Positions 12,844-45,923 of a stretch of DNA of 64,000 nt are shown one piece after another. Numbering within the stretch: position 1 is the stretch's first letter; each line of letters opens with the position of its first letter. The notes below the pieces were generated by a model. That model worked only from the letters and a program-made list of their open reading frames with translations, did no database searches and was not told where the DNA came from. The translations under genes and the position numbers were made by a program. The stretch is from assembly GCF_001458215.1 (NCBI RefSeq), contig NZ_CYTW01000003.1, forward strand, positions 1 to 64,000, read 5' to 3'. Origin of the DNA: Shimia thalassica. Lineage in GTDB: Bacteria > Pseudomonadota > Alphaproteobacteria > Rhodobacterales > Rhodobacteraceae.

Positions 12844-13600
12844 CTTCCAGCTCCTTGCCCATATAGGCCTCTTGCACAACGTCCGACGCCATAACTTCGG
12901 TCGGGTCCCCATCCGCAGCAAGGGCGCCGTTGTGCAAAACGATGATGCGGTCGGCGAGGGTCCGGATCACATCCATCTTGTGTTCGACCAAAAGGATCGA
13001 GCGATCTTTCTTGGCTTTCAGTTCGGCAATCAGGTCAAGCACAACAGGGGCTTCATCGACAGACATCCCCGCGGTGGGCTCGTCAAACATATAGACCAGC
13101 GGATCCAGCGCGATCAAAAGCGCCACTTCCAGTTTGCGCTGGTCGCCGTGGCTCAACTCGGAAACGATCTGGTGTGCCTGATCGGTCAGCCGCACGCGTT
13201 CCACGATTTCCTCGGCCGGGCGGGTCAGGTCGTCATGATCCGAGGCCATCGAGAACATGTTAAAGCCGCGTCCGGCCTTGGATTGAATGACAAGGCGCAC
13301 GTTTTCCAGCACGTTCAGGTTCGGAAACAGGTTGGTAAGCTGGAAAGCGCGCCCAACCCCAAGATGCGTGCGCTGGGCGACGGACATACGCGTGATGTCG
13401 CGCCCGTTAAGCAGGACCTTGCCCTCGCTTGACGGGATTTGTCCCGAGATGAGGTTGAAATAGGTCGTTTTGCCTGCGCCGTTCGGGCCAACAATGGCCG
13501 TCAGCTCTCCGGCGTTAAACGTACAAGAGATATGGTCGACAGCCACGTGGCCACCAAACCGTACGGTAAGATCGGTTGTTTCAAGGATCGGATGTGACAT
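12836..13600 (-). CDS. ABC transporter ATP-binding protein, LivG type
   Basis: A 254-residue ATPase with Walker A GPNGAGKTT, signature LSHGDQRKLEVAL and Walker B VYMFDEPTAGM. The RAFQLTNLFPNLNVLENV stretch is characteristic of LivG. The start is ATG 13600 (MSHPILETTDLTVRF); in-frame sequence upstream is non-coding hairpin DNA. It is the second gene of the operon after the binding protein, separated from it by 107 bp with two hairpins. Confidence 0.94.
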   Translation of the reverse strand: MSHPILETTDLTVRFGGHVAVDHISCTFNAGELTAIVGPNGAGKTTYFNLISGQIPSSEGKVLLNGRDITRMSVAQRTHLGVGRAFQLTNLFPNLNVLENVRLVIQSKAGRGFNMFSMASDHDDLTRPAEEIVERVRLTDQAHQIVSELSHGDQRKLEVALLIALDPLVYMFDEPTAGMSVDEAPVVLDLIAELKAKKDRSILLVEHKMDVIRTLADRIIVLHNGALAADGDPTEVMASDVVQEAYMGKELEDV

Positions 13601-33120: not shown

Positions 33121-33582
33121 TTAGATGCACTTGAAATATTCAAAGGGTTCAAGACAGTCCTGACAGCGCCATTGTGCCTTGCACGGGGTCGAGCCGAACT
33201 GGCTCAGCTTTTCGAGATGTGTGCCGCCGCAATGCGGGCAGCGTTGTGGGCCTCCCGCCGGTTGCGGCGGGGCAATCCCGTATTTCTCAAGAGCGGTGCG
33301 GGCCTTGTCGGACATCCAGTCTGTCGTCCACGCCGGGCTCAGCTGTTGCTTGAGTTCGATATGGTCGAGCCCGCAATCGCGGAGCTTGGTTTCGATGTCC
33401 ATGTTGATCATCGATGTGGCCGGACAGCCGGAATAGGTCGGGGTCACGGACACCACACAGGTCTCGCCATGAAACTCCACGTTCCGGATAATGCCGAGAT
33501 CGACCAGTGTAATCACGGGAATCTCGGGATCGGGGATGGTCTCCAACCATTCCCAGACCTGTTTGACACTTGGCTGGGTCAT
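33121..33582 (-). CDS. paaD: Phenylacetyl-CoA epoxidase maturation protein PaaD
   Basis: A 153-residue protein with an N-terminal DUF59/MIP18 domain (IPDPEIPVITLVDLGIIR, TPTYSGCPATSMI) and a C-terminal zinc- or cluster-binding tail (CPHCGGTHLEKLSQFG, then RCQDCLEPFEYFKC). It is thought to help mature the metal centres of the epoxidase. AAGGAG precedes the ATG. Confidence 0.94.
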   Translation of the reverse strand: MTQPSVKQVWEWLETIPDPEIPVITLVDLGIIRNVEFHGETCVVSVTPTYSGCPATSMINMDIETKLRDCGLDHIELKQQLSPAWTTDWMSDKARTALEKYGIAPPQPAGGPQRCPHCGGTHLEKLSQFGSTPCKAQWRCQDCLEPFEYFKCI

Positions 33583-33633
33583 GTCCTTGCTCCTTGTGAG
33601 GGTGGGGCCTTGGTGACCAAGGCCCCCATCGCG

Positions 33634-34398
33634 TCACCACTCGCAACCGGGATAGGCGCGCTGCAACCACTGCATCGACGTCAGAAGATGCCCCAGATGC
33701 TCGGTGTGCATATAACCGGTACGACCACCCTTGTGGGCGTATTTGCTGGCCGGAATGGTCAGCGTCGCATCGGCCAGAACCTTGCCCACCAGCGCGTCAT
33801 ATTCTTCGCGCAAGCTGGCCGGATCGGGCGCAATGCCTGCTTCTGCCATGGCGGCGTCCACATCGTCACTTGCAAAGAATTCACCGACATAGGGCCAGAG
33901 GTAATTCAGCGCCTCTTGCATGCGTGCGTGGCTTTCCTCGGTGCCGTCACCCAGACCCACAACCGTGTCAGCGGAACGCTCGACATGATAGGCCACCTCT
34001 TTTGAGGCTTTGGCGGCAATCGCGGCAACAGTTTCGTCCGACGACTTCATCAGGCGACCCATCAGAACCGACTGGAAGGCGTCAAACAGGAACTGGCGCA
34101 GCAATGTGCGGCCAAAGTCGCCATTCGGCAACTCGGTCAGCAGCACATTGCGGAAATCCCACGCGTCGCGCAGAAACGCGAGATCATCAGCCGATTTGCC
34201 TTCGCCCTGCACGTCGGCGGCATAACCCAGCCACATCTGCGTCTGCCCGATCAGGTCCAGCGCAGTGTTGGCCAGTGCAATGTCTTCTTCCAGAATGGGC
34301 GAGTGACCACACCATTCCGATACGCGGTGCCCGAGGATCAGGGTGTTGTCCCCCTGACGCAGCAGGAACTGCAGCAGTTTTTCTTGATCGACAGCCAT
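33634..34398 (-). CDS. paaC: Phenylacetyl-CoA epoxidase structural subunit PaaC
   Basis: A 254-residue ferritin-like subunit with LGHRVSEWCGHSPILEEDIALANTALDLIGQ at the N-terminus and YHVERSADTVVGLGDGTEES in the middle. It pairs with PaaA in the multicomponent epoxidase. Its start overlaps the paaB stop by one base (TAATG), so translation is coupled. Confidence 0.95.
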   Translation of the reverse strand: MAVDQEKLLQFLLRQGDNTLILGHRVSEWCGHSPILEEDIALANTALDLIGQTQMWLGYAADVQGEGKSADDLAFLRDAWDFRNVLLTELPNGDFGRTLLRQFLFDAFQSVLMGRLMKSSDETVAAIAAKASKEVAYHVERSADTVVGLGDGTEESHARMQEALNYLWPYVGEFFASDDVDAAMAEAGIAPDPASLREEYDALVGKVLADATLTIPASKYAHKGGRTGYMHTEHLGHLLTSMQWLQRAYPGCEW

Positions 34399-34682
34399 TA
34401 CATGTGCCCCACTTCATCGGGGATGTCGAAGAAGGTCGGGTGACGATACACCTTCGACTCGGACGGTTCGAACAACGGGCCTTTTTCACCCGGTGCGGTG
34501 GCGGCGATGTGGCGGGCTTCAACAACCCAGATCGACACGCCTTCATTGCGACGGGTATAGACGTCGCGGGCGTTCTTGATCGCCATCTCGGCGTCCGGTG
34601 CGTGCAGTGATCCAACGTGACGGTGGCTCATTCCATGCTGACCGCGGATAAAGATTTCCCATAGGGGCCATTCGTTTTTCAT
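34398..34682 (-). CDS. paaB: Phenylacetyl-CoA epoxidase small subunit PaaB
   Basis: A 94-residue protein with the family's standard opening (NEWPLWEIFIRGQHGMSHRH) and the SIWVVEA and YRHPTFFDIPDEVGHM segments. It bridges PaaAC units. GAGGAGGACAACC lies before the ATG. Confidence 0.96.
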   Translation of the reverse strand: MKNEWPLWEIFIRGQHGMSHRHVGSLHAPDAEMAIKNARDVYTRRNEGVSIWVVEARHIAATAPGEKGPLFEPSESKVYRHPTFFDIPDEVGHM

Positions 34683-34703
34683 AGGGTTGTCCTCCTCAGG
34701 TAC

Positions 34704-35696
34704 TTATTCAGCTGCAACTTTGGCAGCGGCTTTTTTGCGGGCATGCGCCATCAGACCATCACGCACCCATTGACCGTTGTCCCATGCGGCGACGCGATCA
34801 TTCAGACGATCCACGTTGCAGGGGCCATTGCCGCGGATCACGTCCATGAACTCGTCCCAATCGGGATCCGAGAAATCATAGTGGCCGCGTTCTTCGTTCC
34901 ACTTGATGCCCTCGTCCGGCAGGTCGAGACCCAGATATTCGATCTGCGGGATGGTCTGGTCGACAAATTGCTGGCGCAGCTCGTCGTTGGATTTGACCTT
35001 GATCTTCCACGCCATCGACTGTTCCGAATGGGTGCTGTCGCTGTCATGCGGGCCGAACATCATCATCGCCGGGAACCAAAGACGGTTCAGCGCATCCTGC
35101 GCCATCTTCTTTTGCGCAGGTGACCCGAAGGCCATCTTCATCATCGCGTGATAGCCTTGACGCGCATGGAAGCTTTCTTCCTTGCAGATACGGATCATCG
35201 CGCGGCTATAGGGGCCATAAGATGTCCGCTGCAGCGCCACCTGGTTCACAATCGCCGCGCCATCAACCAGCCAGCCAACCGCGCCGATATCGGCCCAGTT
35301 CAGCGTGGGATAGTTGAAGATCGACGAATATTTCATGCGGCCCTCGTGCAAGAGCCGGACCAGCTCGTCACGTGTCTCGCCCAGCGTTTCCGCCGCCGAA
35401 TACAGGTACAAACCATGGCCCGCTTCGTCCTGTACTTTCGCCAGCAGGATCGCCTTGCGCTCCAGCGTGGGCGCACGGGTGATCCAGTTGCCTTCGGGCA
35501 GCTGGCCCACGACTTCCGAGTGCGCATGCTGGCCCATCTGGCGGATCAGCGTGGCGCGATAGTCGTCAGGCATCCAGTCACGGGGCTCGATCTTGATGTC
35601 GTTGTCGATTTTGTCTTGGAACTCACGTTCCTGTTCGGACATGTCCTCGCGGGATGTAATGCCAGAGCGGGCTGTTTTAATGAGCTGTGCATACAT
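34704..35696 (-). CDS. paaA: Phenylacetyl-CoA epoxidase catalytic subunit PaaA
   Basis: A 330-residue di-iron monooxygenase subunit that inserts oxygen into the phenylacetyl-CoA ring. Two metal motifs are visible: [13 protein letters not shown] and [12 protein letters not shown] (each with E-x-x-H), with [15 protein letters not shown] further on. GGGAGGAGACCTGCT precedes ATG 35696. It is second in the operon, 15 bp after paaJ. Confidence 0.97.
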
Positions 35697-35711
35697 AGCA
35701 GGTCTCCTCCC

Positions 35712-36914
35712 TTATACGCGTTCGAGAATGATGGCGGCACCTTGACCGACACCAACACACATGGTGCACAGCGCATAGCGCCCACCGGTGCGTTGCAATT
35801 GATAAGCGGCCGTCAGCACAAGGCGCGCACCGGACATACCCAGCGGGTGCCCCATGGCAATCGCGCCGCCATTGGCATTTACATGGGGGGCGTCATCCGC
35901 CACGCCAAGTTCGCGCAGGGTTGCGAGACCTTGTGACGCAAATGCCTCGTTCAATTCTATCACATCCATCTGGTCGATGGTCAGGCCGGCACGCGCCAGA
36001 ACCTTTTGGCTGGCGGGGACGGGGCCAATACCCATCACGCGCGGGGCCACACCGGCGGCAGACATGCCAACAACACGTGCCATCGGTGTCAGGCCGTTTT
36101 TGGCGGCGGCGGCTTCACTGGCCAACAGGATTGCGGCAGCCCCGTCATTCACACCCGAGGCATTGCCCGCGGTTACGGTTTTGTCGGGGCCATTCACGCC
36201 CTTCAGACCACCCAACTTTTCGGCACTTGTACCGGGGCGGGGGTGCTCGTCTGTGTCAACGATCACCGGATCGCCCTTGCGTTGCGGAACGCTCACGGCG
36301 GTGATTTCGTCGGTAAATACACCGGCCTCATGCGCAGCCGCCCAACGGGCCTGGCTGGTGGCGGCGAACTTGTCCTGATCTGCGCGGCTGATGCCGTAAT
36401 CTTCGGCGACATTATCCGCCGTCTGGGGCATCGAGTCGGTGCCGTACATCTCGTGCATCTTCTTGTTCACAAAACGCCACCCGATGGTGGTGTCAAAGAC
36501 GGCGTTGGCACGGGTAAAGGCGCTGGTGGCTTTGGGCATCACGAAAGGTGCGCGGCTCATGCTTTCCACACCGCCTGCGATTGCCATGTCATAGTCACCG
36601 GCCTTGATGCCACGTGCGGCCATGCCCACGGCGTCCATTCCGGACGCGCACAAACGGTTTACAGTGGTGCCCGGTACATCAATCGGCAAACCTGCCAGCA
36701 GTGCCGCCATCCGCGCCACGTTGCGGTTGTCTTCGCCCGCCTGATTGGCCGAACCATAAATCACATCGTCGATGCTGGCCCAGTCAACTTGGGGGTTGCG
36801 CGCGACCAGTGCGGCGATGGGGGCCGCAGCCAGATCGTCTGCACGTACCGAAGAAAGTGCGCCGCCATACCGCCCGATCGGGGTGCGGGTTGCGTCACAG
36901 ATGAATGCGTCCAT
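35712..36914 (-). CDS. paaJ: 3-oxoadipyl-CoA thiolase (PaaJ/PcaF)
   Basis: A 400-residue thiolase completing beta-oxidation to acetyl-CoA and succinyl-CoA. Catalytic residues: Cys in VNRLCASGMDAVG (near residue 90), His in GGAIAMGHPLGMSGARL, and Cys in ALCTMCVGVGQG. ATG 36914 is chosen; a longer start at 36938 lacks support. It leads the paaJ-A-B-C-D-E operon. A PaaR-type palindrome lies about 38 bp upstream. Confidence 0.92.
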   Translation of the reverse strand: MDAFICDATRTPIGRYGGALSSVRADDLAAAPIAALVARNPQVDWASIDDVIYGSANQAGEDNRNVARMAALLAGLPIDVPGTTVNRLCASGMDAVGMAARGIKAGDYDMAIAGGVESMSRAPFVMPKATSAFTRANAVFDTTIGWRFVNKKMHEMYGTDSMPQTADNVAEDYGISRADQDKFAATSQARWAAAHEAGVFTDEITAVSVPQRKGDPVIVDTDEHPRPGTSAEKLGGLKGVNGPDKTVTAGNASGVNDGAAAILLASEAAAAKNGLTPMARVVGMSAAGVAPRVMGIGPVPASQKVLARAGLTIDQMDVIELNEAFASQGLATLRELGVADDAPHVNANGGAIAMGHPLGMSGARLVLTAAYQLQRTGGRYALCTMCVGVGQGAAIILERV

Positions 36915-36951
36915 GGGGATTACCTTTGTCCTGTTCATCGTCGGATAATAG

Positions 36952-36967
36952 CCGACCGCATGGTCGG
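36952..36967 (-). promoter_or_regulatory. PaaR-type operator of the paaJABCDE operon
   Basis: CCGACC and GGTCGG arms (36952-36957, 36962-36967) flank a 4-bp centre. The site adjoins a possible -10 TATTAT (minus strand, about 36944-36949), so bound repressor would cover the promoter. Confidence 0.7.
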
Positions 36968-37134
36968 GATAGCCCAGAGGGCGATTCGTAGCAAGTTAAA
37001 TGTTACTCATTTTTGATAAATGGAAAAATTTGGTAACGTAATGGGGGTGAAGTGCTGACCCGTTCTGTGGATAAAACAACGCCCCCGGCGTCATTTGACA
37101 CAGAGGGCGCTCGGATCGCGGCTAAAACTGGCTG

Positions 37135-37173
37135 GTACAAACCGGACAATCGGGCCGGAAGTTTTGTACAAAA
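37135..37173. repeat. Palindromic segment in the maiA-paaJ gap
   Basis: GTACAAACCGG (37135-37145) can pair with the CCGG...TTTGTAC arm ending at 37169, and TTTTGTACAAAA (37162-37173) is a perfect 12-bp palindrome. It starts 13 bp after the maiA stop, so it may be a weak terminator. The rest of the 271-bp gap holds the paaJ promoter, GC-rich repeats near 37080-37115, and no gene. Confidence 0.45.
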
Positions 37174-37185
37174 TGAACAAAAGGC

Positions 37186-37824
37186 CTATTTCGGTGCCAC
37201 CGCATCAGGATAGGCCGCAGCAAAAGCAGGATGGGCTGCACAGGCCTTTTCGACCGCAGTGATGCGCGTGCAATCATCAAAGGCCACGCCCCAGCGATGC
37301 GCGTTGTAAAGTTGAGGCATCAGACAAAGGTCCGCAAGGGACGGCGAGTCACCACAACAGAACGGCGCCTGTTCGAACTCGGCCAGAAGGCTTTCAAAGG
37401 CTTGCAACCCATTGGGAATAAAGTGTTTCATCCAGTCCACCTTGGCCTCTGGCTGATCCGGCAACAGTTTGGAAACATGCGCGACGACACCCAGATTACA
37501 GACCGGATGCACATCAACCGCCACACTATGGGCGACAGCGCGCACCTTGGCGGCCAGCACCGGATCGCTTGGCAGCAGGCCCAACTCTCTGGTTTCATTA
37601 AGATAATCCAGAATGGCCAGCGATTGTGTAAAGCTGTGCCCATCAATTTCCAGCACCGGCACCAACCCCTGCGGATTGCGCGCGACGTGGTCGTCCGACT
37701 TGTGTTCGCCCTTCACCAGATCCACCGAAATGGCCCGATATTCGATCCCCGCAAGGTTCAACGCGATGCGCACACGATAGCTTGCAGATGAACGCCAATA
37801 GTCAAAAAGGATCGCTTCGGTCAT
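37186..37824 (-). CDS. maiA: Maleylacetoacetate isomerase
   Basis: A 212-residue zeta-class GST-fold enzyme isomerising maleylacetoacetate to fumarylacetoacetate. The SSASYRVRIALNLAG motif (residues 12-26) has Ala at the Cys position of the eukaryotic SSCS motif. The glutathione-binding QSLAILDYLNE segment follows. It is the last gene of the homogentisate operon, 76 bp after the VOC gene. Confidence 0.93.
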   Translation of the reverse strand: MTEAILFDYWRSSASYRVRIALNLAGIEYRAISVDLVKGEHKSDDHVARNPQGLVPVLEIDGHSFTQSLAILDYLNETRELGLLPSDPVLAAKVRAVAHSVAVDVHPVCNLGVVAHVSKLLPDQPEAKVDWMKHFIPNGLQAFESLLAEFEQAPFCCGDSPSLADLCLMPQLYNAHRWGVAFDDCTRITAVEKACAAHPAFAAAYPDAVAPK

Positions 37825-37900
37825 GTGTAAGTTCCTGAGAAAAAGGCAACAACCGGCCACGAGGCCGGCTGTTCTTTCATAAAGCAATTTGCTTGCGAAG

Positions 37901-38446
37901 TTAAGCGTCTTTGTTCAGCTCTTTGGCATGCAGCCAATCCGCATGTTTCGGGGCTTTCTTGGTGACGGACCATTCGTTCAGCATGTCCCATTTCACCGCG
38001 TCCATCCGCTCGAGCAGGGCTTCTTCTTCGGGATCGGGGCAGGCCAGTTCAACACGGTGGCCGTTGGGGTCGAAGAAATAGATCGAGTGGAAAATCGAGT
38101 GGTCGGTCACGCCAAGAACTTCGACGCCTTCCTTTTCAAGATGCTCCTTGAACTCGATCAGCGTGTCACGATCTTTTACTTTGAAAGCAATGTGTTGCAC
38201 CCAGATCGGCGTGTTCGGATCACGGCCCATTTCGGGTTTTGTCGGCAGTTCAAAGAACGCCAGAACGTTGCCGTTCCCTGCATCAAGGAACAGATGCATA
38301 TAGGGGTCGGGCTCGTGTGTGGATGGAACATGGTCTTCGGCGATTGCCAGAATGAAATCCATGTTCAGCATTTTGCCATACCACTCCACGGTTTCTTTCG
38401 CGTCTTTGCAGCGATAGGCGACGTGATGAATTTGTTCGACTTTCAT
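37901..38446 (-). CDS. VOC (glyoxalase/extradiol dioxygenase fold) family protein
   Basis: A 181-residue single-module VOC protein. Metal-ligand-like positions are the His in EQIHHVAYRC (near residue 8), IWVQHIAFKV, and the Glu in GHRVELAC. GAGGAGTAACACCCG overlaps the upstream stop, so it is tightly linked to the DUF2783 gene. The reaction is unknown. Being next to the FAD hydroxylase, it may act on an aromatic or ring-opened product. Confidence 0.8.
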   Translation of the reverse strand: MKVEQIHHVAYRCKDAKETVEWYGKMLNMDFILAIAEDHVPSTHEPDPYMHLFLDAGNGNVLAFFELPTKPEMGRDPNTPIWVQHIAFKVKDRDTLIEFKEHLEKEGVEVLGVTDHSIFHSIYFFDPNGHRVELACPDPEEEALLERMDAVKWDMLNEWSVTKKAPKHADWLHAKELNKDA

Positions 38447-38452
38447 CGGGTG

Positions 38453-38653
38453 TTACTCCTCGGATTTGAGCGCGGCTGCCGCCAGCGCCTGAGACAGTGT
38501 CGCGCGGTCTCCAATGTGGTTCGCCATCACCAGAACAAGGCGGGCATTCAGCGCCTGGCTGTCTGCGTCGGACAGGCCTTCGTGGGTGGCAATCAACTCG
38601 GCATAGAAATCGTCTACGCCATCGATATTCGGGGTCAGGATAAGATCAGACAT
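38453..38653 (-). CDS. DUF2783 family small protein
   Basis: A 66-residue acidic, helical protein matching DUF2783 (NIDGVDDFYAELIATHEGLSDADSQALNARLVLVMANHIGD). Function is unknown. It sits 5 bp after the FAD hydroxylase and is usually found beside such enzymes, so it may be a small partner of it (inference). Confidence 0.78.
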   Translation of the reverse strand: MSDLILTPNIDGVDDFYAELIATHEGLSDADSQALNARLVLVMANHIGDRATLSQALAAAALKSEE

Positions 38654-38658
38654 CAGGA

Positions 38659-40281
38659 TTACTCCTTGCCAGTGGCGCGGCGAATGGCGGCGCGGATCTG
38701 GTTTTCATCAAAGTTGGGACGGCGTGCGGCGACGTGTTGATCGGGGCGGATCAGGTAGACGCCCGCCGGGCAGTCGCCCAGATACCGCTCTTTCAACAGC
38801 AGGCTTGGATCGTCATGGGTCGACAAGGCCAGCCGACGCACGGTGATGCCGGACTCTTCGATTTCATCGGGTGCATCGGTGTCGATGGTCAACAGGATGA
38901 ATTCATTGCCCAGCTTGGACAAAAGATACCCGTCTCCCAAAGGAACATCGGGGCAGGGCGAGCCGGGGCGCGTGCGTGCCGGTCCATCCAGCGCATCTGC
39001 CGAATTCAGTGCGGACCCGTCATAGGTGCATGGCACCGACAGGCGCCCAGAGTTCACCATGGGACGCGCGAATTCATAGTGCTCTGACAGGGCCAGAACC
39101 GAGTCTCGCAGCAAGGTCGACATGGCAGACTTCGGCGTGATGAAGTCGGTCGACCGTGTCGAGTTCAGGATGTTTTCGTCCGCACCGTGTACACGCTCGG
39201 TGTTATAGGTATCCAGCAGGCTTTCGGGGGCTTTGCCCTCGATGACCATGCCCAGTTTCCAACCAAGGTTGTCCACGTCCTGCATGCCCGAGTTCGCGCC
39301 ACGTGCGCCAAAAGGCGAAACCTGGTGTGCGGCGTCACCGGCAAAGAACACACGTCCCTGAAGGAAGCTGTCCATGCGTTTACATTGGAAGGTATAGATC
39401 GAGGACCAGACCATGTCGTATTCAACGCCTTTGAGGAAGGCATCGAGACGGCGGCGGATGTTTTCCTCTTTCATTTCTTCCTTGCGGTCCACATCCCAAC
39501 CGATCTGGAAGTCAACACGCCAGACATCGTCGGGCTGGCGGTGCAGCAGCATCGAGGCACCTTCGCCGTGCGAGGGTTCAAACCAGAACCAGCGCTCAGT
39601 CGGGAAGTCCACATCGCCCTTCATTTTGATGTCGGCAATCAGGAAGCTGTCCTGGAATACCTTGCCGGTAAAGTCATAACCGAGCATCTCGCGCAGGGGC
39701 GACGACGCCCCATCACAGCCCACAAGCCAGTCGGCCTCCATTGTGTAGGGGCCGTCCGGTGTCGAAACCTCCAGCACAACGTGGTCTTCCTTGACCGTCA
39801 CATTGTCGATGCGGTTTTTGCCGCGAATTTCAATCGGGGCGCCCTGGGCCTGAAGCTCGCGCAGGCGTTCGATCTGGAAGCTTTCAAAGTAAGGCTGTTG
39901 CAGGTTGATAAAGGCCGGATACTTGTGACCTTCTTCAGGCAGCAGGTTGAATTCGAAAACCTGATCGTCCTTGTGGAAAACCTTGCCCACGTTCCAGACG
40001 ACGCCCTTATCGAGCATCGGTTCACCACAGCCGTAGCGGTCTGCGATCTCGAGACAGCGTTTGGCAAAACAGATCGCGCGCGATCCCATGCCGACGCCTT
40101 CGTGGTCATCCAGCACAACAACCGGAATGCCCTGAAGCCCAAGGTCAAGAGCGGTGGCAATGCCAATCGGCCCGCCGCCCATCACGACAACGGGGTGGCG
40201 CACAGGTGTGTCTTTGTCCTGATCTGCTGACCGTTCGTAAGGATAAAGCTTGTAGGCCAGAGTATATCTGTCATCAAACAT
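38659..40281 (-). CDS. FAD-dependent aromatic hydroxylase (PheA/TfdB/MhpA-like)
   Basis: A 540-residue group A flavin monooxygenase. It has the FAD site VVVMGGGPIGIATALDLG (residues 31-48), a DG motif (LVGCDGASS) and the GD motif FFAGDAAHQVSPFGARG, followed by the C-terminal thioredoxin-like domain of the phenol hydroxylase group. GGAGGAG precedes ATG 40281. Within the homogentisate operon it could make homogentisate from 3- or 4-hydroxyphenylacetate; that substrate is inferred from context only. Confidence 0.82.
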   Translation of the reverse strand: MFDDRYTLAYKLYPYERSADQDKDTPVRHPVVVMGGGPIGIATALDLGLQGIPVVVLDDHEGVGMGSRAICFAKRCLEIADRYGCGEPMLDKGVVWNVGKVFHKDDQVFEFNLLPEEGHKYPAFINLQQPYFESFQIERLRELQAQGAPIEIRGKNRIDNVTVKEDHVVLEVSTPDGPYTMEADWLVGCDGASSPLREMLGYDFTGKVFQDSFLIADIKMKGDVDFPTERWFWFEPSHGEGASMLLHRQPDDVWRVDFQIGWDVDRKEEMKEENIRRRLDAFLKGVEYDMVWSSIYTFQCKRMDSFLQGRVFFAGDAAHQVSPFGARGANSGMQDVDNLGWKLGMVIEGKAPESLLDTYNTERVHGADENILNSTRSTDFITPKSAMSTLLRDSVLALSEHYEFARPMVNSGRLSVPCTYDGSALNSADALDGPARTRPGSPCPDVPLGDGYLLSKLGNEFILLTIDTDAPDEIEESGITVRRLALSTHDDPSLLLKERYLGDCPAGVYLIRPDQHVAARRPNFDENQIRAAIRRATGKE

Positions 40282-40370
40282 GGGGTAGTCTCCTCCAAAA
40301 TTCGGGCGCACTTTTCGAAGCCATGGCCGCGCATGACGCCAATGAATGCCATTGTATTTCGCGCCGCGGC

Positions 40371-40402
40371 CTTGTGCGCTGATCTGAAACAAGGCGCACA
40401 AG
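40371..40402 (-). promoter_or_regulatory. Intercistronic hairpin before the FAD hydroxylase
   Basis: CTTGTGCGC (40371-40379) pairs perfectly with GCGCACAAG (40394-40402), 14-nt loop, in the 139-bp gap after the MBL gene. No U-run. Confidence 0.6.
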
Positions 40403-40420
40403 ACGAGGCTGAGTAGTGGT

Positions 40421-41371
40421 TTAGCCTTGCAGCGCTTCCCACATTTCCAGATCGCGTTGCGCGGTCCAGATGCGTGGGTGCGCGATGCCGCGGGCTTCGT
40501 CATAAGCGCGGGCAACGTTGAACGGCAGGCAGTGTTCGTAAATCGCATAGTCGGCGAATTTCGGATCACATTCGGCGCGAACCGCATCCCATGCTTCTTT
40601 CAGAGACCCACCGCGAGCAGCAACCTTGGCTGCAGGCAGATAAGTGCTCTGAACGAAGTCGCGGGTGCTTTCGATGGCGCGTTCCACGGCGTCTTTGCCA
40701 ACCAGCGCACCGCCACGACCGGGTGCGATCGCATCCACGTCATAGGCTTTGATATTGTTGAGAGTCTGACCCCAGTCCGCAAAATGGCCGTCACCACAAT
40801 AACAGGCCGAGTGGTCTTCGACGATGTCGCCGGTGAACATGACGTTCTGGTCTGGCACGTGGATGACTGCGTCGCCGGCTGTGTGGGCACGGCCGATCTG
40901 TTTGATGTTCACGCGGCGCTTGCCGAGGAACACGGTCATTTCATCGCTGAAAGTGGTGGTCGGGAAGGTCAGTCCGGGAATCGACTCGTGACCTTCGAAC
41001 AGGCGGGGGAAGCGTTGGAATTCACTGTCCCAGTCTTCCTGACCGCGCTCCAGCACCATGTTGTAGGCGGCATTTGACATGATGACCTGTTGGGCCCCAA
41101 AGGCAGACGCGCCCAGCACGCGCACCGCGTGATAGTGTGTCAGAACAACGTGGGTGATGGGTTTGTCGGTGACCGAACGCACGCATTCGATAACTTTGTT
41201 GGCCAGGCGAGGCGTTGCCTGAGCCTCGACGATCATGACGCTGTCGTCGCCGATGATGACGCCCGAGTTAGGGTCGCCTTCGGCCGTAAAAGCGTACAAG
41301 CCTTCGCCGATCTCGTCGAAAGTGATTTTCTTTTCGGTCATGTCCCCTTGGGACGCGAATGCTTTTGCCAT
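40421..41371 (-). CDS. Metallo-beta-lactamase-fold hydrolase with atypical metal motif
   Basis: A 316-residue MBL-fold protein. The first metal motif reads H79-Y-H81-A-V83-R84 instead of HxHxDH, so the second-site Asp and His are missing. A later His (RAHTAGDAVIH) and Asp (MFTGDIVEDHS) are kept. It may bind a single metal or have lost hydrolysis. AAGGAAACACACA precedes ATG 41371. It sits between fahA and the FAD hydroxylase in the homogentisate operon. A CoA-thioester or lactone hydrolase role is possible, not shown. Confidence 0.8.
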   Translation of the reverse strand: MAKAFASQGDMTEKKITFDEIGEGLYAFTAEGDPNSGVIIGDDSVMIVEAQATPRLANKVIECVRSVTDKPITHVVLTHYHAVRVLGASAFGAQQVIMSNAAYNMVLERGQEDWDSEFQRFPRLFEGHESIPGLTFPTTTFSDEMTVFLGKRRVNIKQIGRAHTAGDAVIHVPDQNVMFTGDIVEDHSACYCGDGHFADWGQTLNNIKAYDVDAIAPGRGGALVGKDAVERAIESTRDFVQSTYLPAAKVAARGGSLKEAWDAVRAECDPKFADYAIYEHCLPFNVARAYDEARGIAHPRIWTAQRDLEMWEALQG

Positions 41372-41394
41372 TGTGTGTTTCCTTTTTCGGTGCG

Positions 41395-41425
41395 CCCGCC
41401 GGGCGTTTGGGACGCCGCCGGCGGG
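41395..41425 (-). repeat. GC-rich intercistronic hairpin of the Rhodobacteraceae intergenic type
   Basis: CCCGCCGG (41395-41402) pairs with CCGGCGGG (41418-41425), with an inner GGCGT-ACGCC stem. It is followed by GGAGTATTTGGGAAGA, a combination I recall as recurrent in intergenic DNA of this family. It lies between fahA and the MBL gene. Confidence 0.6.
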
Positions 41426-41451
41426 AGTATTTGGGAAGAGATGAAGTTGGT

Positions 41452-42726
41452 TTAGCCTTTGGCAGGCCATTCAACAGCCGGAAGGATTTTGCCGGTGCAA
41501 TCCCCAAAGCCGATGCTGAACCCGTCACCCTTGGCTGCGCCGCGCAGGGTGAGCGTGTCGCCGTCTTCGATGAATGTGCGGGTTTCGCCAGTGTCCAGTG
41601 TGAACGGCTCGCGACCGGCCCAGCTCATCTCCATCAACGAACCGTATTCGGTTTTGGTTGGACCTGAAATTGTGCCCGATCCCAAAAGATCGCCTACATT
41701 CATCGCGCAACCGCCAACCGCGTGGTGACACAGTTGCTCCGCGGCAGAATAGTACATCCGGTTATAGTTGGTCTCGCCGACGATGCTGGCTTTTTCAGCA
41801 CCTTCAGGCTGCATAAGAACCTGTAGTTCGATGTCGTAGAGGCCGTCTTTGGAGCCATCGAGGTAGGGCAGAAGTTCCTTTTCACGTTCCGGAGTAGGCG
41901 CGCGGAAGTCTTCCAGGGCGGCGGCTGTCACGATCCACGGGCTGATAGAAGTGCCAAAGGCTTTGCCTTGGAACGGGCCCAATGGCTGGTATTCCCAACC
42001 CTGGATGTCGCGTGCGGACCAGTCGTTCAGCAGAACATAGCCAAAGATCATGTCATCGGCTTCGTCCACGGTGATCGGTTGGCCAAAGTCACAGGGCTGG
42101 CCAACAATCGCACCCATTTCAAGCTCGATATCCAGACGCATCGAGGGGCCAAAGCTTGGCATCTCGGCATCGGGGGCCTTGCGCTGGCCATTGGGTCGGT
42201 GGATCGGTGTGCCCGAAACCACAACCGACGACGCGCGACCGTTATAGCCGATTGGAATGTGCAACCAGTTGGCGGGCAGATCAGGCGACCCGCGCAGGAT
42301 TGCACCCATGTTGGCGGCGTGTTGGCGGCCTGCATAGAAATCCGTGTATTCGCTCACGGCAAAGGGCATGTGCAATGTGGCATCTGCCATCGCAACCAGA
42401 TGGGGTTCCGTTGCGGCCTGTTCGTCGCTGCCTTCTGCCAGCAGTGCGGTAAGACGGGCGCGCAGCTCGGCCCATGCGTCGGGACCCAGATCCATCAGAT
42501 CGTTCCAGTAGGGCACGTCAAAGACCGGAATTTCACTCAAGGCCACAAGCCCGGCTTGTTCAGCCGAGGCCATGTCCAGGATCATGTCACCAATCGCAAC
42601 GCCGCACCGCTCTTCGGTGCCTGCAACAGAGAACACACCATAAGGCAGGTTGTTCAGCGGGAAGGGGTGATTTGCGTCGTTGGCCGAAGCCACCCAGCTT
42701 TTCAATAGAGGCAAAGCTCTCTCCAT
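41452..42726 (-). CDS. fahA: Fumarylacetoacetase
   Basis: A 424-residue FAH-family hydrolase splitting fumarylacetoacetate to fumarate and acetoacetate. The N-terminal SH3-like domain is followed by the catalytic core with SEYTDFYAGRQHAANMGAILRG, MRLDIELEMGAIVG and LLNDWSARDIQGWEYQPLGPF. ATG 42726 gives the usual start; its ribosome site is weak. It follows hmgA by 71 bp containing a hairpin. Confidence 0.95.
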   Translation of the reverse strand: MERALPLLKSWVASANDANHPFPLNNLPYGVFSVAGTEERCGVAIGDMILDMASAEQAGLVALSEIPVFDVPYWNDLMDLGPDAWAELRARLTALLAEGSDEQAATEPHLVAMADATLHMPFAVSEYTDFYAGRQHAANMGAILRGSPDLPANWLHIPIGYNGRASSVVVSGTPIHRPNGQRKAPDAEMPSFGPSMRLDIELEMGAIVGQPCDFGQPITVDEADDMIFGYVLLNDWSARDIQGWEYQPLGPFQGKAFGTSISPWIVTAAALEDFRAPTPEREKELLPYLDGSKDGLYDIELQVLMQPEGAEKASIVGETNYNRMYYSAAEQLCHHAVGGCAMNVGDLLGSGTISGPTKTEYGSLMEMSWAGREPFTLDTGETRTFIEDGDTLTLRGAAKGDGFSIGFGDCTGKILPAVEWPAKG

Positions 42727-42770
42727 TTTTCGTGGCCTATGTGTGAGGCCGAATTCATCAATTTCCGAAG

Positions 42771-42801
42771 GTAGGTTTGGGGTGTTCCCCAATGAGCCTA
42801 C
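42771..42801 (-). promoter_or_regulatory. Hairpin overlapping the hmgA stop codon
   Basis: TTGGGG-TGTT-CCCCAA (42777-42792) forms the top of a stem, and GTAGG (42771-42775) with CCTAC (42797-42801) forms its base. It overlaps the hmgA stop and has no U-run. Probably attenuates or stabilises the message. Confidence 0.55.
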
Positions 42802-44159
42802 TTTTTGCCGGGGGTGCCGTCGAATTTCTTCTCAATGTCGACCCAGCAGTCGATATAGTCGTCCTGCAGTGGGGCTTCACTTGCGGCAAATCCGGTCAAG
42901 TGTTGTGGGAAGCGTGTTTCGAACATGAAGGACATGGTGTTGTCCAGCTTTTCGGCGGTCAGATCTGCATTCGAGGCGCCCTCGAACGCGTTCTTGTCGG
43001 GGCCGTGCGGCAGCATCATGTTGTGCAGCGACATGCCGCCGGGGATGAACCCTTGGGGCTTGGCGTCGTACTGGCCATAGATGTTGCCCATCAGCTCGGA
43101 CATGATGTTCTTGTGATACCACGGTGGGCGGAATGTGTCCTCGGCCACCATCCAGCGCTCGCGGAACAACACAAAGTCGATGTTCGCGGTGCCCGGCTGA
43201 CCCGAAGGTGCGGTCAGGACGGTAAAGATCGAGGGATCGGGGTGATCAAACAGGATCGCACCGACAGGGCAATAGGTGCGCAGGTCGTATTTCACCGGCG
43301 CATAGTTGCCGTGCCATGCCACAACATCCAATGGGGACTGGGCGATTTCGGTTTTGTGAAACTGTCCGCACCACTTTACGGTCACTGTCGACGGGACTTC
43401 GCGGTCTTCAAAGGCGGCTACGGGCGCTTTGAAATCACGCGGGTTGGCCATGCAGTTCGCGCCGATCGGGCCACGACCGGGCAGTTCGAATTTCTGGCCA
43501 TAGTTTTCGCAGACAAACCCACGTGCCGGACCTTCGAGAACTTCGACACGGTAAAGCAGGCCGCGGGGAAGAATGGCGATTTCCTTTGGCTCGACATCAA
43601 TGATGCCCAGCTCGGTTGAAAAACGCAGAACGCCCTCTTGTGGCACAACCAGCATTTCCGAGTCGGCCGAGAAAAAATAGTCATCCTCCATCGAGGTGTT
43701 GACCAGATAAGTATGCGTGGCCATGCCCACTTGGGTGTTCACATCACCCGCGGTGGTCATGGTGCGCATGCCCGAAATCCATGTGAGCGCATCTTCACTG
43801 TGGGGAACAGGGTCCCAACGGTATTGACCCAGTGAGATCACGTCAGGGTCTACGTTCGGGGCAGATTTCCAGTAAGGCACATCAATTTTTGTATAGCGAT
43901 GCGAGTGCTTGACCGACGGGCGGATACGATAGCACCAGGTCCGTTCGTTCTGGTGAGATGGTGCCGTAAAGGCGGTGCCGGACAGCTGTTCGCCATAAAG
44001 CCCGTAATTGCATTTTTGCGGGCTGTTCATGCCCTGCGGCAGTGCACCGGGCAGAACCTCGGTTTCATAATCATTGCCAAACCCTGGCATATACCCTTCA
44101 TTTGGACCTTCCAGAGAAGGGGCAACTTGCATCCGGGTGGGATGAGCCAAATCTTTCAT
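42798..44159 (-). CDS. hmgA: Homogentisate 1,2-dioxygenase
   Basis: A 453-residue iron-dependent ring-cleaving dioxygenase. The iron ligands lie in [12 protein letters not shown] (His, Glu) and [12 protein letters not shown] (His). The N-terminus reads [30 protein letters not shown] precedes the ATG. First gene of the operon and divergent from a MarR regulator. Confidence 0.97.
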
Positions 44160-44207
44160 CGCGCGTTCCTTAGTGACAGTTTCTGTCGAATTTGGTTGCT
44201 TTGGTAA

Positions 44208-44225
44208 TAGTTGTTTTTGTAACTA
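44208..44225. promoter_or_regulatory. Candidate MarR operator between hmgA and its regulator
   Basis: TAGTT (44208-44212) and AACTA (44221-44225) form an inverted repeat in the 87-bp divergent gap. A second repeat, GACAG-TTT-CTGTC (44175-44187), lies nearer hmgA in its leader. Confidence 0.5.
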
Positions 44226-44246
44226 ACAAGCAGGAGGATACTGAAA

Positions 44247-44684
44247 ATGTCAGAAAACGATGATTTTAACTTACAGGTCTTTCTGCCCTACCTGTTGAAT
44301 CAGGCCGCCGAAGAAAGCAGCATCGCCTTTACCCAAGTCTATAAAAACAAATACGGAATGTTGCGCACCGAGTGGCGTGTGCTGTTCCATCTGGGGTCGT
44401 TTGGGAAGCTGAATGCCACCGAGATCGGGGCCCGTTCAAAAATTCATAAAACGAAAATCAGCCGCGCCGTTCAGAAACTGGTCGAAAAGCGATTCGTGGT
44501 GCGCGAGCGTTCCGAAGACGATCGACGTCAGGAATTCTTGACCCTGACATCTGCCGGACAAACAGCGTATGCTGATCTGCGAAATGTCGCGCGGGATTAC
44601 GATGCGGCCCTGTGTGACAAGTTTTCGGAAGACGAAGTTCTTTTACTGCGCAAGATGTTGAGACGGCTTGCCGCGATGGAGTGA
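44247..44684 (+). CDS. MarR-family regulator, probable homogentisate operon repressor
   Basis: A 145-residue winged-helix protein: LRTEWRVLFHLGSFGKLNATEIGARS, then IHKTKISRAVQKLVEKRFVVRERSEDDRRQEFL, which includes the DRR wing motif. AGGAGGATACTGAAA precedes the ATG. It is divergent from hmgA, which it most likely represses, and 9 bp upstream of an adenylate cyclase gene. Confidence 0.88.
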   Translation: MSENDDFNLQVFLPYLLNQAAEESSIAFTQVYKNKYGMLRTEWRVLFHLGSFGKLNATEIGARSKIHKTKISRAVQKLVEKRFVVRERSEDDRRQEFLTLTSAGQTAYADLRNVARDYDAALCDKFSEDEVLLLRKMLRRLAAME

Positions 44685-44693
44685 TTTAGATTT

Positions 44694-45923
44694 ATGAGCT
44701 GCCAAACAATAGCCAATACCAAAAACCTTTCTGAATGGCTTGTTGCGAATGGATTAGAAGGCGCGAGCCAAGGGCAGTTGCTTGAGGAGTATTGCAACAA
44801 ACTGTTGGCGATGGGGGTTCCCCTGCTGCGCTTGCATGTTGCCCAAAGGGCATTTCATCCGGAATACGGCGGCATCGGGTTTGACTGGCTTCGTGAAAGC
44901 GGATTTTCGGACGAGCAGTACACCTATAGCGAAACCCCCGTTCAGCAATGGCTGGCCAGCCCGTTCTATATGATGTTGCAAGAACGGATTTGGGAGTACC
45001 GCGAGCGCATCGGCATCGAAGGACACCAGAGCACCTTTCCCTTGTTGCAGGGGTTACAGGAAAGTGGCGCAACAGATTATGTCGCGGCGGCCGTTTTGTT
45101 TGAAAAGCCTGATCCATCAAAGGGACCGGATCCCAACGATACCCCCGAAGGAATGTTGATTTCCTGGACGTCTGATGCTGCAGACGGGTTCAGCGATGAC
45201 GACGTTGCCTTGCTCAAAGAAACCTTGCCGGTTTTGGGGCTTGCCCTGAAATCCGCAGCAAACCGTCAAATGGCGAGCGATCTGTTAAAGGTCTATCTGG
45301 GGCGGGACGCTGGGCAGCGTGTGCTGTCTGGGGAAATTCGACGGGGCAGCCTACAGAGTCTGGACGCGGTCATTTTCTATTTCGACCTCTCCGGATTTAC
45401 GGTCATGACCGAACAGATTCCGGCACCTTCCATTGTTGAAATGCTGAACGACTATTTTGCCCTGGCCGTGAAAATCGTGCGCGAACACGGGGGCCATGTT
45501 CTCAAGTTCATGGGGGACGGCATGTTGGCGATGTTCGACCATGGAGAAATGGGCGACGCTGCAAAATCTGCGCTGGACGCTTCGGTTGATCTGGGCGCAG
45601 GTATGGAGGTGCTCAGTGCGGGGCGCGCGGCAAAGGGGCTGCCGCATACGGGCTATACATTGGCGCTGCATGCAGGCGAAATTCTCTATGGCAACATCGG
45701 CGCGGAAACACGTCTTGATTTCACGGTCATCGGGTCGGCGGTAAATCAAACGGCGCGGATTGGCGGGATGCATGGGGCGCTTGGGCAAAAAGTGCTGATT
45801 TCGCAAGCGGTCCAGAATGCCGCCGTTGATACCGAATATGACCTTGTCCCACTGGGGCGCTATATGCTGCGCGGCGTGACCGAACCCCAGATGCTTTATA
45901 CGCTTTATTTGCGAGGTTCCTGA
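44694..45923 (+). CDS. Class III adenylate cyclase with unknown N-terminal sensor
   Basis: A 409-residue protein. Residues ~220-360 are a class III cyclase domain with all key positions: metal Asp231 (FDLSGF) and Asp275 (GDG), adenine-selecting Lys271 and Asp342, and transition-state Asn351 and Arg355. It should therefore make cAMP. The first ~200 residues are an uncharacterised domain typical of rhizobial/roseobacterial cyclases; there is no membrane segment. It is probably co-transcribed with the upstream MarR gene, which could link aromatic catabolism to cAMP (inference). Confidence 0.86.
   Translation: MSCQTIANTKNLSEWLVANGLEGASQGQLLEEYCNKLLAMGVPLLRLHVAQRAFHPEYGGIGFDWLRESGFSDEQYTYSETPVQQWLASPFYMMLQERIWEYRERIGIEGHQSTFPLLQGLQESGATDYVAAAVLFEKPDPSKGPDPNDTPEGMLISWTSDAADGFSDDDVALLKETLPVLGLALKSAANRQMASDLLKVYLGRDAGQRVLSGEIRRGSLQSLDAVIFYFDLSGFTVMTEQIPAPSIVEMLNDYFALAVKIVREHGGHVLKFMGDGMLAMFDHGEMGDAAKSALDASVDLGAGMEVLSAGRAAKGLPHTGYTLALHAGEILYGNIGAETRLDFTVIGSAVNQTARIGGMHGALGQKVLISQAVQNAAVDTEYDLVPLGRYMLRGVTEPQMLYTLYLRGS

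Follow-up and report, generated by a model that had tools for sequence, protein, structure and literature searches.

Homogentisate is formed in P. putida U by MhaAB, a 3-hydroxyphenylacetate 6-hydroxylase that consists of MhaA (566 aa) and MhaB (60 aa); similar genes adjoin hmgABC in strain LB400, and MhaAB is termed highly specific for 3-hydroxyphenylacetate (3-HPA) in the parts of the source available here (PMC3053370). The title of PDB entry 9u42 (2025) reads "Homogentisate 1,2-Dioxygenase from Acinetobacter"; we met it only after obtaining the genome-profile results below, and we found no publication on the entry, so the title is the depositors' word. PDB 8d2z (2023) is an MBL superfamily protein from Burkholderia cenocepacia, and its title names no function.

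We analysed a 64,000-nt stretch of Shimia thalassica DNA (GCF_001458215.1, contig NZ_CYTW01000003.1, positions 1-64,000, forward strand), referred to here as the window. With a probability of roughly 80%, its homogentisate operon represents a homogentisate pathway with a built-in hydroxylase feeder, a duplicate ring-opening step (HmgA and a VOC-fold protein) and an MBL-fold accessory. In this scheme, an FAD hydroxylase and its DUF2783 partner would convert a hydroxyphenylacetate, most likely 3-HPA at C6 as in MhaAB, to homogentisate, and either of two unrelated dioxygenases, the cupin-fold HmgA or the VOC protein as a one-domain extradiol-type enzyme, would convert homogentisate to maleylacetoacetate. 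MaiA and FahA would complete the route to fumarate and acetoacetate, and the MBL-fold protein, with one metal site, would be an accessory of the homogentisate branch. Gene content, conservation, the replacement pattern and the conserved residues are established directly, and from them we infer the enzyme activities throughout.

Organization and recurrence of the operon

The first gene of the operon is hmgA (42798..44159, minus strand; TIGR01015, 642 bits, above cut-off), which encodes the cupin-type homogentisate 1,2-dioxygenase. The fumarylacetoacetase gene fahA (41452..42726; TIGR01266, 505 bits) and the maleylacetoacetate isomerase gene maiA (37186..37824; TIGR01262, 239 bits) are also on the minus strand, both matches being above cut-off. 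The earlier note had placed a four-gene set between fahA and maiA, and gene calls and family matches bear this out: a single minus-strand run encodes an MBL-fold protein with a one-metal-type site (40421..41371; Pfam Lactamase_B, E 5e-11), an FAD-dependent aromatic hydroxylase (FMO; 38659..40281), a 66-aa DUF2783 protein (38453..38653; PF10932, E 4e-27) and a 181-aa VOC-fold protein (37901..38446; Pfam Glyoxalase, E 1e-16). The start of the hydroxylase gene is an inferred one, because the frame stays open further upstream. A divergent MarR-family gene (44247..44684, plus strand; Pfam MarR_2) likely encodes the regulator of the homogentisate operon, and a MarR gene pointing away lies less than 1 kb ahead of the operon in 59/80 relatives. 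In the gap between the VOC gene and maiA, a pattern scan finds a terminator-like hairpin of 11 pairs with a T-rich tail (37848..37873, minus strand), whose stem is the longest among the 20 terminator-like sites in 33500-44700, against 12.0 (sd 4.4) sites in shuffles. A phenylacetyl-CoA-type run, paaJ-paaABC, is found among the neighbouring genes. The 64-kb window contains no hppD, as had been pointed out before; this absence is no sign, because the genome has hppD elsewhere, its single match to the HppD model being located beyond the window (G000:C1:1601781-1602794, 360 bits).

A search for the same four genes in other genomes had also been proposed. With the MBL gene as anchor, among the best 80 named loci, the complete four-gene module is present in 18, the hydroxylase in 74, DUF2783 in 72 (always with the hydroxylase and in 0 loci without it) and the VOC gene in 19, while hmgA, fah and maiA are present in 67, 66 and 46, respectively. 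This co-occurrence is more than chance, and the module has the look of an accessory set, common among bacteria, that channels aromatic acids into the homogentisate pathway.

The MBL-fold protein has a single conserved metal site

The model of the MBL-fold protein (pLDDT 84) and its Foldseek matches to MBLs show an MBL fold, in which the residues of the first metal site are retained. The HxHxDH motif and the final histidine of dinuclear MBL hydrolases are replaced by HYHAVR and PGRG, both of which are shared by the nearest solved relative, PDB 8d2z (54% identical over the full length, TM 0.91). HYHAVR and R219 are found in 128/128 distinct homologues, all of which keep the first-site ligands H79, H81, H163 and D182 and have lost the second-site ligands. 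This conservation, together with the hydroxylase gene in 74 of the 80 loci above, points tentatively, at somewhat less than even odds, to a metal enzyme of the mononuclear type, perhaps a hydrolase of lactones or thioesters, that would use the product or substrate of the hydroxylase. However, the proposed reaction is a guess, and four loci (L092, L105, L109 and L141) carry the MBL gene with hmgA-fah and no FMO within the fetched stretch, so the MBL-fold protein may belong to homogentisate itself. Within this very widespread catabolic operon, the conserved one-metal-site family is the single member left without an explanation.

The hydroxylase and DUF2783 protein resemble MhaAB

The hydroxylase is about 540 aa long, contains the PF01494 domain (E 2e-56) and falls in the PRK08132 subfamily (NF006002, 734 bits, cut-off 416), in keeping with an FAD-binding aromatic hydroxylase of the MhaAB type (~560 aa). 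The MhaAB type also has an adjacent partner of about 60 aa, and the DUF2783 ORF, 5 bases downstream of the hydroxylase gene, likely encodes a small, MhaB-like coupling partner; for a related hydroxylase of Acinetobacter, the partner (61 aa) matches DUF2783 only weakly and under cut-off (E 0.024). In a 72-row tree, the hydroxylase falls in a clade of 15, in 14 of which a gene for HmgA, Fah or VOC is no more than 8 kb away. The best reading of these sequences is that the FMO and the DUF2783 protein form a homogentisate-feeding hydroxylase, and they fit the published two-component MhaAB, which would make them a known kind of enzyme. The likeness is to the published description of MhaAB and lies in an FAD flavoprotein of similar size with a partner gene of 60-66 aa near homogentisate genes, whereas the MBL-fold and VOC genes are additions of the present locus. 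The earlier interpretation is supported in part: a homogentisate-making hydroxylase remains the best reading, but as an enzyme of a known kind.

The family is tied by its tree context to homogentisate genes and not to any single substrate, and the paa run lies close by; the substrate could thus be 4-hydroxyphenylacetate (by 1-hydroxylation with a side-chain shift) or another aromatic acid in place of 3-HPA. We consider such a substrate rather unlikely, as the flavin enzyme of this two-component type that PMC3053370 describes, in the parts available, with a partner of 60 aa and hmg genes nearby, is MhaAB, termed highly specific for 3-HPA.

The VOC-fold protein is a candidate second homogentisate dioxygenase

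In 398 genomes, the VOC core family forms one score class (at least 292 bits, next score 173), and the VOC protein of the window falls inside it. Residues H8, H85, H116, Y123 and E133 are invariant in 69/69 core sequences, and H85, H116, Y123 and E133 align with H214, H246, Y255 and E265 (numbers hand-counted) in the active half of catechol 2,3-dioxygenase 1mpy, a type I extradiol dioxygenase. We take these residues to be a two-His-one-Glu metal site with a catalytic His and Tyr. Unlike enzymes of the 1mpy type, the VOC protein is one 181-aa chain, and the overall similarity is weak (profile E 2e-7). The VOC protein is an orthologue of PDB 9u42 by sequence (276 bits, E 1e-81, residues 3-178) and 67% identical to it in a fold search, the only use made of its poor structure model (pLDDT 58.7); 9u42 also matches the VOC protein of the A. 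baumannii cluster (403 bits). However, the VOC gene of the window shares its operon with the cupin hmgA, whereas the Acinetobacter clusters were seen without hmgA. HmgA and the VOC protein are unrelated in sequence and belong to separate Pfam families, although they would catalyse the same reaction.

Three operons (L085, L099 and L123) have the same arrangement minus hmgA, and no HmgA match was found in any of the three assemblies searched; this absence carries less weight because two of them (L085 and L123) come from metagenome bins and the third (L099) from a draft, with no completeness given. Jhaorihella thermophila DSM 23413 is among the hosts of such an hmgA-less operon, and its draft genome gives no HmgA match. 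By comparison, all seven VOC-less loci without a local hmgA (7/7) have hmgA elsewhere in the genome. An Ideonella plasmid carries an hppD-VOC-fahA cluster (plasmid sequence alone), and A. baumannii carries fahA-maiA-VOC with a divergent hppD; no HmgA was found in two chromosome-size A. baumannii records.

Core VOC genes are carried by 41/398 genomes. With HmgA absence set at E 1e-15, HmgA is absent from 28 of these carriers, present at 270 bits or more in 12 and present in a low-scoring form in 1. At E 0.01, 26 of the 28 HmgA-less carriers give no HmgA match and 2 give fragments; the absence is weaker in genome G112, which is 81% complete. HppD is found in 25/28 and MaiA in 27/28 of the HmgA-less carriers, and in 15/28 the VOC gene and hppD are same-strand neighbours no more than 500 bases apart. 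Among the 68 genomes with TIGR01266, VOC proteins occur in 13/13 without HmgA (9 core, 4 distant) versus 10/55 with HmgA (Fisher p 3.6e-8), and core VOC proteins alone in 9/13 versus 8/55 (p 2e-4), with both p-values overstating the significance because the genomes are related. Over all 398 genomes, no negative association of VOC and HmgA is found (13 both, 28 VOC only, 127 HmgA only, p 0.73); the VOC protein is thus seen to stand in for HmgA in the TIGR01266 genomes (13/13) and in the three operons, not as a plain association over the 398 genomes. The four distant VOC proteins in HmgA-less TIGR01266 genomes may have another role.

The earlier suggestion was that the VOC protein could be among those handling an intermediate. 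The profiles across genomes, the context in operons, the residues of the active site and the title of 9u42 favour a different role: it is probably a further homogentisate dioxygenase with no relation to HmgA, and many bacteria seem to use such a VOC-type ring-opening enzyme in place of HmgA. It is proposed as the missing ring-opening step where HppD, MaiA and fumarylacetoacetase are present but HmgA is absent, for example in Acinetobacter, which would account for failed hmgA searches in such genomes and gives a proposed function to a gene labelled VOC family protein in databases. More speculatively, and in our view doubtfully, the VOC fold could be a second widespread class of bacterial homogentisate dioxygenases that has repeatedly displaced HmgA, with roseobacters keeping both in a shared operon to suit differing conditions or substrates and the adjacent MBL-fold enzyme, whose one metal site has three histidines, carrying out a new reaction of aromatic catabolism.

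Because the VOC gene coexists with an intact hmgA in Shimia thalassica, its product may turn over a different substrate there or be kept in reserve. Coexistence with HmgA of at least 270 bits, in the window and in 12/41 carriers in all, and distant relatives (39-51%) beside alpha/beta hydrolases would suit a VOC protein whose substrate is a related hydroquinone that the hydroxylase makes from some other compound, with HmgA alone serving homogentisate, but this is improbable given the VOC gene next to hppD, whose product is homogentisate, in 15/28 HmgA-less genomes, the single score class of the core sequences, the title of 9u42 and a conservation as strong as that of hmgA in six relatives with both genes (dN/dS 0.03-0.06 for VOC and 0.04-0.07 for hmgA). 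The distant relatives adjoin alpha/beta hydrolases at L180, L183, L185 and L188, with the hydroxylase and DUF2783 also present at L180, so the wider VOC family may open other rings.

Other candidates were rejected. Against NCBIfam, the VOC protein of the window scores 38 bits with fosfomycin transferases versus 36 bits with catechol 2,3-dioxygenase, all far under cut-off, and a Fos-type transferase (FosA/FosB; cut-offs 171 to 305 bits) was dismissed on these scores. Replacement of MaiA by the VOC protein was discarded given MaiA in 27/28 HmgA-less VOC genomes. Gentisate in place of homogentisate was rejected at locus L042, where the protein matches HmgA models (TIGR01015, 84 bits; HgmA_N, E 5e-17). 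The low-scoring HmgA form (58-88 bits) is present in 32/398 genomes, and weak HmgA matches also occur at loci L041, L051 and L055.

Operon layout and recurrence of the module

In the window, the gene order on the minus strand is hmgA, fahA, the MBL-fold protein, FAD hydroxylase (FMO), DUF2783, VOC and maiA, with a divergent MarR regulator gene ahead of hmgA. Gene calls and family models recovered every gene that the earlier note had named, all on the minus strand. Between VOC and maiA, the minus strand carries a strong terminator-like hairpin (37848-37873), so VOC may be the final gene of the main transcript. Downstream of the operon, paaJ/pcaF was identified by a model match, and it is followed by paaA, paaB and paaC, named by order and by homology to annotated neighbours; the Dinoroseobacter annotation shows the same run. 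The earlier note had seen no hppD, which is true of the window, but the same genome carries hppD (360 bits) on a different contig. Next after the MarR gene comes a gene for a class III nucleotide cyclase (44694-45923), and 16 of the best 80 relatives' loci have a similar gene.

Of 190 genomes of the class, 29 have a match to the hydroxylase family NF006002 above its cut-off. Among 31 neighbourhoods surrounding such matches, DUF2783 occurs in 26, MBL in 17 and VOC in 3. An MBL-anchored scan of named genomes was used to take the best 80 loci; some of these stop at contig edges, so the counts are lower bounds, with at least 74 containing FMO, 72 DUF2783, 67 hmgA, 66 fah, 46 maiA and 19 VOC. MBL, FMO and DUF2783 occur jointly in at least 72 of these 80 loci, all seven operon genes in at least 11, and all four module genes, whose co-occurrence elsewhere had been proposed as a check, in at least 18. 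We chose 20 extra neighbourhoods from 63 MBL places in further genomes of the phylum, and MBL, FMO and DUF2783 occur together in 17, 12 of them also with hmgA. The four-gene module is genuine and common, and part of it is already known. Two contigs titled Nocardioides marinus (L073) and Enemella evansiae (L111), both Actinomycetota, carry this alphaproteobacterial gene set with MBL identities of 89% and 83%; they are probably contaminated or mislabelled assemblies.

The hydroxylase and the MBL-fold protein

The hydroxylase tree comprises 72 sequences from the loci at hand, many fetched via MBL, and in this uneven sample the window hydroxylase falls in a clade of 15, of which 14 lie no more than 8 kb from hmgA, fah or VOC. 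On the tree as a whole, the label for such a nearby gene changes 13 times, compared with 21.0 in shuffles. PMC3053370 describes MhaA (a 566-aa flavoprotein) and MhaB (a 60-aa coupling protein) of Pseudomonas putida U as a 3-hydroxyphenylacetate 6-hydroxylase that yields homogentisate, and like genes (560 and 60 aa) adjoining hmgA1B1C1 in strain LB400. At about 540 and 66 aa, the pair in the window matches these in make-up and setting. We infer that the window hydroxylase and DUF2783 are orthologous to MhaA and MhaB, and that MhaB belongs to DUF2783. The earlier suggestion of a ring hydroxylase making homogentisate, a predicted activity, fits this published kind of enzyme. A literature match for DUF2783 concerns, going by its title, a denitrification regulator.

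The MBL fold is sound (model pLDDT 84; PDB 8d2z, 54% identical, TM 0.91). In 128/128 distinct homologues, HYHAVR replaces the usual HxHxDH and Arg replaces the last His, while H79, H81, H163 and D182, at the positions of metal ligands in MBLs, are kept. Because the second-site motif is changed and these four residues are kept, the protein should, as predicted from conservation, form only the first metal site. MBL mostly accompanies the hydroxylase, and four hmgA-fah operons (L092, L105, L109 and L141) have MBL without a hydroxylase inside the fetched stretch. The 398 genomes contain 63 MBL places, and in 46 of them HmgA or core VOC is no more than 8 kb away.

VOC as a likely second homogentisate dioxygenase

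The proposed hydroxylase activity fits an already published kind of enzyme, and the unexpected part is VOC, which is likely, as a predicted activity, a second homogentisate dioxygenase in the same operon with a fold unlike HmgA. This reading is supported by replacement patterns and by the title of a recent structure (PDB 9u42), which was seen only after the genome tests of the idea.

Among 398 Pseudomonadota genomes, core VOC (at least 292 bits; next score down 173) was found in 41, fumarylacetoacetase TIGR01266 in 68 and HmgA (E 1e-15) in 140, of which 108 score at least 270 bits and 32 score 58-88 bits. HmgA is absent at this threshold from 28 of the 41 core-VOC genomes, 25 of which have HppD and 27 MaiA; in 15 of the 28, VOC and hppD share a strand and are no more than 500 bases apart. 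Loosening the HmgA search to E 0.01 gave nothing in 26 of the 28 and only hmgA fragments in the other two, G364 (by fah) and G298 (by maiA). These fragments (G364:C33:72270-72557 and G298:C83:5482-5850) resemble hmgA decay, and VOC sits elsewhere in both genomes. VOC is present in all 13 TIGR01266 genomes without HmgA (the core form in 9, a distant form scoring 153-164 bits in 4) versus 10 of 55 with HmgA (p 3.6e-8, kinship ignored); for core VOC alone, the figures are 9/13 and 8/55 (p 2e-4, kinship ignored). The full set of 398 genomes shows no negative VOC-HmgA association (p 0.73, kinship ignored; both 13, VOC only 28, HmgA only 127, neither 230). A member of the HmgA-like class that scores low against TIGR01015 (58-88 bits) is encoded in L042 (12962-13801), next to MBL and the hydroxylase.

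The fetched stretch lacks hmgA in 13 of the best 80 named loci. All seven VOC-less loci among them (L078, L104, L107, L110, L115, L134 and L070) have HmgA elsewhere, as do three of the six with VOC (L064, L076 and L081). The other three, the Jhaorihella thermophila DSM 23413 draft (L099) and two metagenome bins (L085 and L123), for which completeness is not given, have hppD and no assembly-wide HmgA match. In L099, a gap of about 125 bases separates the MarR match from the fah match at the place where L063 has hmgA. VOC, DUF2783, FMO, MBL and fah stand in a row in G404 (100% complete) and G001 (98%), and the gene set is rearranged in G112 (81%); HmgA was not found in these three genomes. G184 has a similar operon, and its low-scoring HmgA lies elsewhere. 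Six relatives carry both enzymes, and their dN/dS against the window is 0.03-0.06 for VOC and 0.04-0.07 for hmgA; VOC is constrained as tightly as hmgA, so neither looks like a relic where both occur.

VOC orthologues also occur in homogentisate clusters without hmgA, where for plasmids the absence refers to the cluster itself: hppD-VOC-fahA (Ideonella plasmid), hppD-VOC-fah (Novosphingobium plasmid), MBL-FMO-DUF2783-VOC-fahA (Sphaerotilus plasmid), fahA-maiA-VOC (Acinetobacter plasmids) and fahA-maiA-VOC-IclR with divergent hppD (A. baumannii). Two chromosome-size A. baumannii records gave no HmgA match. In L097, a metagenome-assembled genome also with hmgA, VOC appears as two overlapping matches in different frames (12880-13414).

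In PMC7646211, A. baumannii AB4353 is reported to lack an hmgA homologue and to have, between hmgC and hmgR, a type I ring-cleaving dioxygenase gene guessed to be inactive. The methods of PMC11945678 give an Acinetobacter hmgA reference of 633 bases with a 14-base overlap with a 1308-base hmgB. The maiA and fahA of the A. baumannii cluster equal these in sizes and overlap, so the hmgA label there seems wrong, and the reference looks like maiA in length and overlap. The available part of PMC9431530 reports that pigment was abolished via a gene named hmgA, by name alone, with the cloned gene unspecified there.

Active site and structure of VOC

H8, H85, H116, Y123 and E133 are invariant in 69/69 distinct core VOC sequences, and 13 distant sequences keep all five residues save one H116. 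In a profile search, H85, H116, Y123 and E133 align with H214, H246, Y255 and E265 of catechol 2,3-dioxygenase (1mpy; numbers hand-counted on the alignment), which we take to be iron ligands and catalytic residues. Fosfomycin transferases also match that region. The VOC structure model is poor; a fold search with it returned PDB 9u42, released in July 2025 and titled "Crystal Structure of Homogentisate 1,2-Dioxygenase from Acinetobacter in Complex with Zn ion", whose chain matches the A. baumannii cluster VOC at 403 bits. No paper describing this entry was found in a collection of open-licence literature; in a 2025 A. baumannii paper (PMC12718150), homogentisate appears in the reference list only.

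Distant VOC relatives (39-51%) adjoin alpha/beta hydrolases in L180 (7959-11512), L183, L185 and L188, which perhaps represent another short ring-opening route. The L180 locus also holds a hydroxylase and DUF2783.
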